Shown here one piece after another: positions 25,731-61,563 of a DNA stretch of 64,000 nucleotides. The position numbers and the translations under genes were made by a program. Source of the stretch: Desulfatirhabdium butyrativorans DSM 18734 (GTDB taxonomy: Bacteria; Desulfobacterota; Desulfobacteria; Desulfobacterales; Desulfatirhabdiaceae); NCBI RefSeq assembly GCF_000429925.1, contig NZ_AUCU01000004.1, positions 186,001 through 250,000 on the forward strand, written 5' to 3'. The notes beneath the pieces were generated by a model. That model made no database searches, was not told the origin of the DNA, and saw only the letters and a program-made list of their open reading frames with translations. Each line of letters starts with the position of its first letter. The stretch's first letter is position 1.

Positions 25731-25807
25731 GGCGATGTAGCTCAGTTGGTCAGAGCATGCGGCTCATATCCGCAGTGTCCGGGGTTCAAATCCCTGCATC
25801 GCCACCA
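25731..25807 (+). tRNA. tRNA-Met(CAT), elongator type
   Basis: A complete cloverleaf with encoded CCA: acceptor GGCGATG/CATCGCC, D-arm TAGCTCAGTTGGTCAGAGCA, anticodon stem TGCGG/CCGCA around CTCATAT (anticodon CAT), T-arm CCGGGGTTCAAATCCCTG. The first acceptor base pair is matched, so it is not an initiator. A tRNA-Ile2 with lysidine-modified CAT is the alternative; the D-arm looks Met-like. Confidence 0.92.
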
Positions 25808-25908
25808 TATCTTCATTCAGACACATCCAAAGTATTCCATAACCCCGCATCAAATCAACGATTTCGGGGTTTTTCCTTTCCAAGTATGTCTGTTAAAATC
25901 TATTTAGT

Positions 25909-25962
25909 GCCTGAACGAAAAACCCCTATTTGGCGCAGTGCGCCGCCTGCGGGCAGGCAATT
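25909..25962. repeat. Dispersed repeat CCTGAACG-AAAA-CCCCTATT, copy 1
   Basis: GTGCCTGAACGAAAAACCCC then TATTTGGCGCAG and a CCGCCTGCGGGCAGG hairpin. A related sequence occurs at 61445-61500. Confidence 0.5.
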
Positions 25963-26009
25963 TTGCGATACATCGTGAAATCCTGCGGAACACAGGACAG
26001 CCGCCCGAT

Positions 26010-26717
26010 CTCGTACGGGTCGGGCGGATTGCCAGCACCGTCGTTTTAGCCTTTGTAGAAGGGCAGAAACCACGAGCCCTTGCCCTTGAGGTGGGTGCAG
26101 AAACGCACCTCGTGCTCGTCCACGGCAAAATGAACGACGTAACAGCCGAACTGGAACAGCAGCTCCTTTGGGTCGCGGTCCCGCTGGTAATGCTGCACGG
26201 CATCGAGCACCGTCTGCTTGGTGAGTTTGTTCTTGAGCTCGAAGGTGGCGATGGGCAGGCCGTTGATAAACACCGCCAGGTCAAGGGCCAGTAGGGGCGA
26301 ACCTCTGTGTTCGCCCGAATCGGCGCGGCTGTAACGGAGCTGGCGGGTGACGCTGAAGATGTTGGCCGCAAAGCGTTCCGCTGCCTTCACATTGCCCGGC
26401 GTCGGCGTGCCGTAAAAAATGTCCACATGGGCCGGGCCGTGCTTGATGCCGCCGCGCAGCACGTCTACTACGCCGCGCTTGGCAATCTCGCCCTGCAGGC
26501 GGTGCAGGAATTGTGTGCGCTTGGGGCCTTCCTTGTCAATGCCGAGCGCCTCATAGGTATCGGGCTGGGTAGCGGCGAGGAACTGCAGCAGTTTGGCCAG
26601 GTCGACGGCGTGTTCCCGGTCGCAGTCCTGCGGGTCACCCTGAACGTATCCGGCCTCGTTGACCAGTGACTGGACAATGAGACTTTCCAGCCCTTTTTCC
26701 GTCGTATCCGTTTTCAT
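26010..26717 (-). pseudogene. hsdR: Type I restriction enzyme R subunit (hsdR), N-terminal remnant
   Basis: HsdR is the nuclease-translocase of type I systems, normally about 1000 residues. Here only the N-terminal nuclease domain survives, from ATG 26717 (MKTDTTEKGLESLIVQSL), through LALDLAVFINGLPIATFELK, which supplies the catalytic D and ExK. A TAA at 26046 ends the frame at FLPFYKG, but homology runs on past it in the same frame (NDGAGNPPDP), after which the gene is gone. The nuclease domain also contains an in-frame GTAGGGGCGA hairpin insertion, reading RADSGEHRGSPLL. No helicase part remains, so it cannot restrict DNA. Confidence 0.85.
26291..26317. repeat. GTAGGGGCGA hairpin repeat, copy 3 (inside hsdR remnant)
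   Basis: GTAGGGGCGAAC-CTCTGT-GTTCGCCC; arms agree with copies 1, 2 and 4 but the outer bases of the right arm have diverged. It lies between codons for VTRQLRYS and LALDLAVF and keeps the hsdR frame. Confidence 0.7.
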
Positions 26718-36827: not shown

Positions 36828-37448
36828 ATGCCAAAACGAATTGTCATTGGAATTTGCGGGGCATCGGGGGTGATTTACGGCATCCGGCTCATCCGGGAGC
36901 TGTTGAACCACCCCATCGAGGCCCATGTGATCGTCTCGGATGCGGGACGGCAGGTGATGGCACACGAGCTGAAAACGGGCGCACCGGTCGCAGAGATCGT
37001 CCAGAGGCTTTACCCCGGCGATTGGCATCCGGATGCCGTTTTCCAGGAACATCCCGTTTCGAGTTTTTTCGAGGCTCCTGCGAGCGGTTCCTTCCGGCAT
37101 GACGGCATGGTCATTGCGCCCTGCTCCATGAAAACGGCTGCCGCCGTTGCTTGCGGTTATGCGGAAAACCTCATTCATCGCGCGGCGGACATCTGCCTCA
37201 AGGAACATCGCAAACTCGTCCTTGTACCGCGAGAAACCCCGTTGAGCCTCATTCATCTGCAGAATCTCCTGCGGCTGGCCGAGGCGGGCGCTGTCATTCT
37301 GCCGCCTGCACCCGGGTTTTACCGCCATCCCGAAACGGTCGGCGATATGATCGATTTTGTCGTCGGCCGAATTCTCGATCAGTTGCACCTTCCCCAAACC
37401 CTCGTTCAGGAGTGGGCCAGTGAAACCGTCGGCACATCAGCGATTTGA
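36828..37448 (+). CDS. ubiX: UbiX family flavin prenyltransferase
   Basis: UbiX makes prenylated FMN, the cofactor UbiD needs. N-terminal RIVIGICGASGVIYGIRLI is the FMN/phosphate loop, HDGMVIAPCSMKTAAAVACG holds the conserved CSMKT motif, and VPRETPLSLIHLQN is the family C-terminal motif. The start at ATG 36828 gives 206 residues; extending to 36675 would add repeat-derived sequence. Its stop lies inside the start of ubiD. With the UbiA half upstream it forms a prenylation and decarboxylation set. Confidence 0.95.
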   Translation: MPKRIVIGICGASGVIYGIRLIRELLNHPIEAHVIVSDAGRQVMAHELKTGAPVAEIVQRLYPGDWHPDAVFQEHPVSSFFEAPASGSFRHDGMVIAPCSMKTAAAVACGYAENLIHRAADICLKEHRKLVLVPRETPLSLIHLQNLLRLAEAGAVILPPAPGFYRHPETVGDMIDFVVGRILDQLHLPQTLVQEWASETVGTSAI

Positions 37449-39243
37449 CAATCTGGGGTCATACATTCAGGCCCTTGACAGGGCCGGAGAACTCCGGACC
37501 GTTTCCGATCCGGTATCGGCCCATCTGGAAATCAGCCGATATACGGATGCGGAATCCAAAAGCCCTGGAGGTGGAAAAGCACTGTTCTTTCCACGGGTGA
37601 CCGGATCGGCGTTTCCGGTGGCCACGAATCTGTTCGGAAGTTACAGACGGATCGGTATGGCCCTCGGTGTCGAGCGGATCGACGACCTTGCCGGCCGGCT
37701 CAAGGCGCTGATTACCATGAAACCGCCGAAGGGCTTGCGTGACATGCTGCAACTGCTGTCCACAGCGCTTCAATTCACATCTTTTTTCCCCCGGCGCTTC
37801 AGGGGGAAAACACCCCCATGCCAGGAAGTGGTGCATCTGGGCGATGCAGCCGATTTGCGCAGGCTCCCTGTCCTGCACTGCTGGCCCGGGGACGGCGGTC
37901 CCTTCATCACCCTGCCGCTGGTCTTTACGAAAAGTCTTGTCAACGGCGTTCGTAATGTCGGGATGTACCGGATGCAGGTCTATGACGAGCGAACGACGGG
38001 CATGCATTGGCACATCCACAAGGACGGATCGAGCAATTTTTCCGAATATCGAAAGGCAGGAAAACGGATGCCGGTTGCAGTCGCCATCGGCGCCGATCCG
38101 GCAACCATATACGCCGCAACGGCACCCATGCCACGGCACGCAGACGAGCTGCTCCTGGCGGGTTTCATCCGGAATCATCCGGTGGTGCTGACCAAATGCC
38201 TGACGGTCGATCTTGAAGTGCCCGCGGAGGCGGAGTTTGTCATCGAGGGGACGGTCGATCCGCAAGAGCTGCGTATCGAAGGCCCATTCGGCGATCATAC
38301 CGGGTATTACTCCCTGGCCGATCTTTACCCGGTATTCCGGGTGAGCGCCATTACACATCGAAGAAGACCTGTCTATTGTGCGACGCTTGTGGGCAGGCCT
38401 CCGATGGAGGATTGTTATTTAGCAAAGGTGACGGAACGGCTTTTTTTACCGCTGCTGCAGATGGTGTTTCCGGAAATCGTCAATTACTGGCTGCCCTGGG
38501 AAGGCGTGTTTCACAACATCGTGGTGGTGGCGATCGAAAAAGCCTACCCGCTGCACGCCCAGAAGACCATGAGCGGCCTGTGGGGACAGGGGCAGATGAG
38601 TTTTTGCAAGGCCATCGTGGTGGTGGATCACGACGTCGATCCGACGGATGAAACCCGGGTGTTTTCGGTGCTGATGGCCTTGCTCGATGTGGAGACGGAT
38701 ATCACCATCAACCGCGGCATTCTCGATGCTCTCGATCATTCTTCTCCGACGCCGCATTATGGCAACAAGATCGGCATCGACCTGACCCGGCGGATTGCCG
38801 GTGAGCTTCCCAGAAAGGCGTTGGATAGAGGCGTAATGGCGCCGCTGGATCGGGAGAAAATCGCCCATGGATTTTCGGATATTGTCGGTGTGCGGCGCTG
38901 GCGGGAGGTTGCCGTTCCGAACGGGGTGAATCGAAAAGTATTTCTGGCGGCTGTGGAAAAGCCCGGAGATCGATCGGGGAGGTGGTATGCCGAGCAATTG
39001 ATGACGGCGGAGCGGCTCTCCGGAATCGATATGTTTGTTCTTTACGATATGGATATCGATCTGGCTGACAACAGCCTGATACTGTGGAAGCTTTTCAATA
39101 ACACCGATCCGGGAAGGGATCTGATGATCCGGGAGGGCAGGGCGGTCATCGATGCCTGCAAGAAAGACGCATCCGACGGTCATCACCGGGAATGGCCCGA
39201 AGAGCTGCACTTCGATGATTTCGCAAAAAGCCCATCGGTATGA
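37420..39243 (+). CDS. ubiD: UbiD family decarboxylase, long menaquinone (MqnL-like) type
   Basis: Decarboxylates aromatic or alpha,beta-unsaturated acids with prenyl-FMN. RGKTPPCQEV and the signature IEGPFGDHTGYYSLADLYPV are clear; the conserved E-R-E residues lie around MHWHIHKDGSSNF and GPFGDHTGYY. The length of 607 residues resembles the long menaquinone forms, such as that of Helicobacter (over 600), rather than E. coli UbiD (497). The start is GTG 37420 with AGGAG seven bases upstream, overlapping ubiX by 29 bases. The likely substrate is a prenylated naphthoate in the futalosine route (inference); no mqnA-E are in the window. Confidence 0.93.
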   Translation: MKPSAHQRFDNLGSYIQALDRAGELRTVSDPVSAHLEISRYTDAESKSPGGGKALFFPRVTGSAFPVATNLFGSYRRIGMALGVERIDDLAGRLKALITMKPPKGLRDMLQLLSTALQFTSFFPRRFRGKTPPCQEVVHLGDAADLRRLPVLHCWPGDGGPFITLPLVFTKSLVNGVRNVGMYRMQVYDERTTGMHWHIHKDGSSNFSEYRKAGKRMPVAVAIGADPATIYAATAPMPRHADELLLAGFIRNHPVVLTKCLTVDLEVPAEAEFVIEGTVDPQELRIEGPFGDHTGYYSLADLYPVFRVSAITHRRRPVYCATLVGRPPMEDCYLAKVTERLFLPLLQMVFPEIVNYWLPWEGVFHNIVVVAIEKAYPLHAQKTMSGLWGQGQMSFCKAIVVVDHDVDPTDETRVFSVLMALLDVETDITINRGILDALDHSSPTPHYGNKIGIDLTRRIAGELPRKALDRGVMAPLDREKIAHGFSDIVGVRRWREVAVPNGVNRKVFLAAVEKPGDRSGRWYAEQLMTAERLSGIDMFVLYDMDIDLADNSLILWKLFNNTDPGRDLMIREGRAVIDACKKDASDGHHREWPEELHFDDFAKSPSV

Positions 39244-39251
39244 AATGCGCC

Positions 39252-39479
39252 GCATGGGAGCGGGTCGCTTTTGCTCCGCAGCGGAAAAACTCAGCCGCCC
39301 GATCTCGTAGGGTCGGGCATTTGACCCGTCTTCGACAGTCATTGCAAGTAATTGAAAAGGGGTTGTTTTGAGCGTATTTCGATTGAGGAAAAATGCCCGT
39401 CCCAATCACGCCTTTGGCGTGATCTCCGGCGGCTTCAAACACGTTTCCGCTGCATCACAAAAGCGACCCGCTCCCATGC
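39252..39479. mobile_element. MITE-like element with 22-bp perfect terminal inverted repeats
   Basis: Left end 39252-39273 starts GCATGGGAGCGGGTCGCTTT; right end 39458-39479 is its exact reverse complement, ending CCGCTCCCATGC. The 228-base unit has no coding capacity and contains a second hairpin around CCGCCCGATCTCGTAGGGTC (about 39297). It fills the gap between ubiD and the DUF3786 gene. The surrounding 309-base gap has no other feature. No clear target duplication is visible at the ends. Confidence 0.7.
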
Positions 39480-39552
39480 TCAGACCTTGCAACAACGGAA
39501 AATCGGGGGTGGAGCGGCTTTTTGCGTTTCCATCTGCGTTGAGGGGTGAATC

Positions 39553-50458: not shown

Positions 50459-50578
50459 GATTCTATCCTCATTCGCGATTGTGCGGAAAGTGTCAGGTTC
50501 CCAGCTGTCTGGTGCGTCGCCAAAGGGCCTGCCCCCGGCCCGGGTCCTTCAAAAAACGGGGTTTCCATTCAGGAACTT

Positions 50579-61377: not shown

Positions 61378-61563
61378 AAGCATAACCGGAAGCAGCCATT
61401 CAACCACCGAACCTGTCACCCATATCCCGTAACGCTTAACTTGCGCCTGAACGGAAAGCCCCTATTCGGAGCAGCACGCTGCCTGCCCTAAGGGCTCAGG
61501 TTGTATCCAAAAAGAGCTTAATGTTCAGGCGCCAACCGACAACATCTAACCGATCGAAATGGA
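61378..61563. other. Gap after the SpoIIE gene with CCTGAACG repeat copy 2
   Basis: Contains CCTGAACGGAAAGCCCCTAT and TCGGAGCAG (61447-61475), related to 25909-25962, followed by the small palindrome GCCCTAAGGGC (61487-61497). Confidence 0.45.

Follow-up and report, generated by a model that had tools for sequence, protein, structure and literature searches.

Does a short palindromic unit lying between two genes mark the true limits of a transposon, and if so, what might have moved it? Bacterial MITEs are short and non-coding, have terminal inverted repeats (TIRs), are flanked by target duplications and occur in many copies. In a 64,000-nucleotide stretch of the Desulfatirhabdium butyrativorans DSM 18734 genome (hereafter the window), a 228-bp unit between ubiD and a DUF3786 gene had been predicted to be such an element, because it is bounded by 22-bp inverted repeats and appeared to have no coding capacity. 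We asked whether these repeats are indeed the element ends, whether related copies exist, and which transposases might act on them.

Limits of the element in the window

The setting is as originally predicted, with UbiD and DUF3786 genes as neighbors, and so are the perfect 22-bp inverted repeats, which lie at 39252–39273 on the forward strand and 39458–39479 on the reverse strand and extend to 36 nt at 89%. The palindrome folds at −119 kcal/mol (z = −10.4), and none of 200 shuffled sequences was equally low. When other copies were read with their flanks and aligned, homology and inverted termini were found to reach 39214 and 39534, past the 22-bp repeats, which are subterminal arms and not the ends that they had been taken for. 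In the other B copies (type B being defined below by its ends), homology stops at GATGGACTCGCAAAAAGTC...GACTTTTTGCGAGTCCATC, and many of them then have an identical six bases on both sides. The perfection of the 22-bp repeats would favor a 228-bp transposon ending at these very repeats, but since B-copy homology passes both of its ends to a common outer repeat, which is the site of target duplications, such limits are refuted by the aligned ends and we give them next to no chance.

We therefore place the whole type-B element at 39214–39534 (321 bp, forward strand as oriented by the conserved core), on the basis of the alignment with 15 other B copies, the TIR match at 39516–39534 and scripted end pairing. 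Both of its TIRs are degenerate: the left TIR-B (GATGATTTCGCAAAAAGCC, 39214–39232, forward strand) has 4 mismatches in 19 positions to GATGGACTCGCAAAAAGTC, and the right TIR-B (GATGGAAACGCAAAAAGCC, 39516–39534, reverse strand) has 3 in 19. The flanking six bases, CACTTC and TGCGTT, form no recognizable target duplication. Because both ends are decayed and the flanking six bases differ, the window copy is either old or rearranged.

The left end of the element runs into the neighboring gene. The ubiD gene spans 37357–39243 and one of its codons starts at 39214, so that the last nine residues (DDFAKSPSV), encoded by the left end of the element, and the TGA stop at 39241–39243 are element-derived. 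The predicted lack of coding capacity was borne out, since no frame of at least 80 aa lies wholly inside 39214–39534 and the overlapping ones are short or enter from the neighbors. Of 46 copies, 38 were used for checking open reading frames (ORFs) and gene arrangements, and in 37 of these 38 no ORF of at least 130 aa runs across the copy.

Two end types and their transposase partners

A search with the surrounding 251 bases returned 66 match rows in the same genome; therefore, the window copy is not single. There are 44 core sites (≤3 mismatches), with 0 for the reversed-pattern control; 33 are forward and 11 reverse on the contigs as given, which may mean nothing as contig orientation is arbitrary. 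Two types of ends are found, TIR-A (GTGCCTGAACGGAAA), present in 369 places (≤1 mismatch; reversed control 1), and TIR-B (GATGGACTCGCAAAAAGTC), present in 103 places (≤2 mismatches; reversed control 0). End pairing, done in a set of extracted stretches, yielded 49 A pairs (81–381 bp) and 27 B pairs (87–345 bp). The target-site duplication that is missing at the window copy was found at its sister copies, with exact 6-bp duplications in 12 of the 49 A pairs vs. 1.0% of cross-paired flanks and in 9 of the 27 B pairs vs. 0.4%. Since at least two of the B pairs (C8 and C10) were paired from an inner match, while their true ends have exact duplications, the B count is low if anything.

Copies of each type come in several sizes. 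Type A has forms of 89, 127, 283 and about 297–339 bp, and type B forms of 87–100 bp, about 165 bp with other cargo, and 308–329 bp. Inspection of the sequences showed two GCCTGC repeats joined in the 89-bp A form, and the short forms look like internal deletions of the long ones. One locus (L009) has a chimeric element, type A at its left end and type B at its right, with unlike flanks and no target duplication. Near one B copy, two cobalamin riboswitches are found in tandem on the minus strand (L013:2552–3048).

Type-A sequences also occur in the window, on the forward strand. The inner piece CCGCCCGATCTCGTA..GGGTCGGGC, which had been described as a dispersed repeat in its own right, does recur at 26001–26027, but as part of a wider-family copy, the left half (TIR-A to inner stem) of a truncated type-A element at 25907–26027. 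A tRNA gene is located at 25731–25804, about 100 bp before this truncated copy. In addition, there are a 90-bp type-A element without the inner stem at 61443–61532, and what is probably a decayed type-A right end at 50513–50577.

Full-length relatives with matching ends, of the kind expected for a MITE, were found in other genomes, whereas the own genome has only TIR-A relics. In one relative (G322), TIR-A bounds a 1870-bp IS (1869 bp in one copy), for which 7 of 7 paired copies have exact 6-bp TANNTA duplications. Its transposase is encoded in two frames: the 156-aa frame matches the first part of the ISNCY model NF033593 and the 333-aa frame the remainder. The score of 375.9 bits is above the curated cut-off of 325. 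The own genome contains two decayed pieces of a similar IS (442 bp, 96.4% identical to each other), both of which end at TIR-A and contain the ISNCY C-terminal part (171 bits). ISDol1 is given as the name of an ISNCY subgroup in the available text of PMC8147514. In another relative (G033), the element bounded by TIR-B is 1877 bp long and has a 575-aa transposase, which matches the IS1182 model NF033551 over its length (150.5 bits, E 7e-44) and is best called IS1182-like, its score being below the curated cut-off of 270 bits. This one complete element has no clear target duplication, and at least five further right TIR-B ends follow the same gene end in G033. No TIR-B transposase was found in the 73 contigs of the own genome, the first query having contained undetermined residues. 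A DDE transposase on contig C67 (L194) is flanked by neither TIR-A nor TIR-B.

With many copies in the genome and full-length IS in relatives, the prediction of a MITE holds, without its 228-bp outline. The explanation that we consider very probable is that a non-autonomous palindromic transposon (MITE) is present at 39214–39534 as an old copy with degenerate ends, type B having most likely been moved by an IS1182-like DDE transposase and type A by an ISNCY-family transposase. Each transposase would recognize the outer inverted repeat, then cut and integrate the element at 6-bp target sites, which are ANNNNT for type B and TANNTA-like for type A. The inner stem common to both types would be exchanged or homogenized by recombination between copies, and internal deletions would give rise to the 89-bp and 127-bp forms.

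A common inner stem in both element types

Both MITE families are of a known kind, and we have linked them to ISNCY and IS1182-like partners. What is unusual is that one inner stem is found under two end types. In the window copy, its left arm is at 39294–39318 and its right arm at 39395–39433 (both forward strand), the latter with an extra small hairpin TCACGCCTTTGGCGTGA at 39406–39422 (forward strand), a net gain of 14 bp that is present in 0 to 3 units in sister copies. We compared the stem in 46 of the 56 A/B pairs of 280–345 bp (the other 10 lacked the core motif as written and were left out). Of these 46, 42 were aligned (16 B, and 26 of 30 A) and 41 (26 A and 15 B; 5 dropped by pattern) were used for arm and loop identities. 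Between A and B, the left arm is 0.72 and the right arm 0.89 identical, compared with 0.49 in the loop, 0.49 and 0.51 in the two outer parts, and 0.44–0.47 in shuffled sequences. Within B subfamilies, arms are likewise conserved and loops diverged. Such conservation of the stem exceeds what mobility relying only on TIRs would require.

Pairing is maintained as well. In the 16 B copies, 97.3% of structure cells are paired and only 32–44% when slid by 1–3 columns, a control that favors the structure because the structure was derived from the same sequences. Changes on both sides were seen for 17 of 63 pairs, while shuffled alignments had a mean of 9.4 and 0 of 500 had as many; further pair types in the B alignment were not exceptional, with 64 of 500 shuffles as high. 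With RNAalifold, such two-sided changes were counted at 18 of 64 pairs in B and at 7 of 85 in A.

Arms that remain alike between A and B while loops and outer parts come near shuffled identity, together with more two-sided changes than in any shuffle, are what would be seen if the inner stem were a functional part, i.e., a selected structured RNA or DNA that spread on two transposon end types. We nevertheless find this rather unlikely. A known structured RNA was rejected, as there was no Rfam 15 match at gathering score over the element (the window and 8 loci), and an association with gene 3′ ends or terminators was rejected too, as copies are found in all gene arrangements in a crude ORF-based look. 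Moreover, outside the own genome the stem is found in one other species genome only, and gene conversion between arms and between copies can likewise maintain a palindrome. It is a speculative idea, which we would bet against, that the conserved stem is a cargo domain of its own in two unrelated end types, with pairing kept by compensatory change while loop and carriers are replaced, and with growth by 14-bp hairpin units; MITEs might then be the vehicles of a structured RNA or DNA element.

The distribution of the TCACGCCTTTGGCGTGA hairpin bears on how the stem is kept. Among the 30 A copies, 5 lack it, 22 have it once and three have it in 2–3 units; among the 16 B copies, 9 lack it and 7 have it once. 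It also differs in presence between two copies that are 97.1% identical (C70 and C32). We infer from these differences and the L009 chimera that recombination or conversion takes place among copies, on a background that keeps the stem. The stem might then be kept neutrally, by template-switching repair of quasi-palindromes inside single copies and gene conversion from one copy to another, which would account for the same presence/absence alleles being found in A and B, for the C70–C32 difference and for the chimera, but would leave unexplained why loops are not homogenized between A and B. We view this as a serious possibility, to which we would give slightly less than an even chance.

Other variation in the interiors was also seen. 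A second small hairpin, TCCTGCGGAACACAGGA, again a net gain of 14 bp, is present in the left arm of 25 of 30 A copies (e.g., L021:1322–1624) and in 0 of 16 B copies. In one truncated copy (L010, C9:47482), the 14-bp hairpin is present as several incomplete units in tandem. Another palindromic cargo, with a GGCGTACT..AGTACGCC-like center or a similar long stem, is found inside both TIR-B and TIR-A elements in this and other genomes (L122:186–349, L135:425–589, L160:1366–1569 and L168–L173), which suggests that elements across the order may generally share their interiors.

Range of the family and relation to known systems

We wondered how widespread these ends and the stem might be. Of 389 genomes in the order, 249 have TIR-B-like ends (≤2 mismatches; 0–2 for the reversed pattern among the matches listed) and 21 have exact TIR-A-type ends (0 for the control among the matches listed). 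When 84,980 species genomes were searched with an exact pattern, the inner stem was found elsewhere in one MAG contig labeled Desulfonema limicola; it is also in G323, probably the same record. DNA searches, which included the own genome, detected the element in 1 genome out of 57 and in 2 out of 389, with only two candidates per genome scored in the 389-genome search. Plasmid spread and viral spread were both rejected, with no match in the plasmids searched and 0 in the viral contigs searched. In the available text of the literature searched on MITEs with ISNCY, in Desulfobacter/Desulfonema or with nested palindromes, there was no report of this family.

An abundant palindrome family of one bacterial order is hereby linked to two transposase families, with its ends and target sites. 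It resembles the ISNCY family (NF033593) in its TIR-A ends, 6-bp duplications and a transposase over the cut-off, all present in the full-length G322 element, while the window element differs in having TIR-B ends and no coding part. It resembles the IS1182 family (NF033551) in that TIR-B ends flank the 575-aa DDE transposase of G033, but this protein is under the cut-off and the 6-bp duplication is found only at the MITE copies of the own genome. Bacterial MITEs, of which MITEAba12 (PMC6382973) is an example, are also among the closest known systems. Members of this family have the general MITE features of being short and non-coding, with TIRs, target duplications and many copies. They differ in having an inner stem common to two unrelated end types, in which hairpin units have been gained and lost. 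With one inner stem found naturally under two transposon end sets, one can test whether the interiors of MITEs are mere filler, or whether selection or homogenization acts on them.
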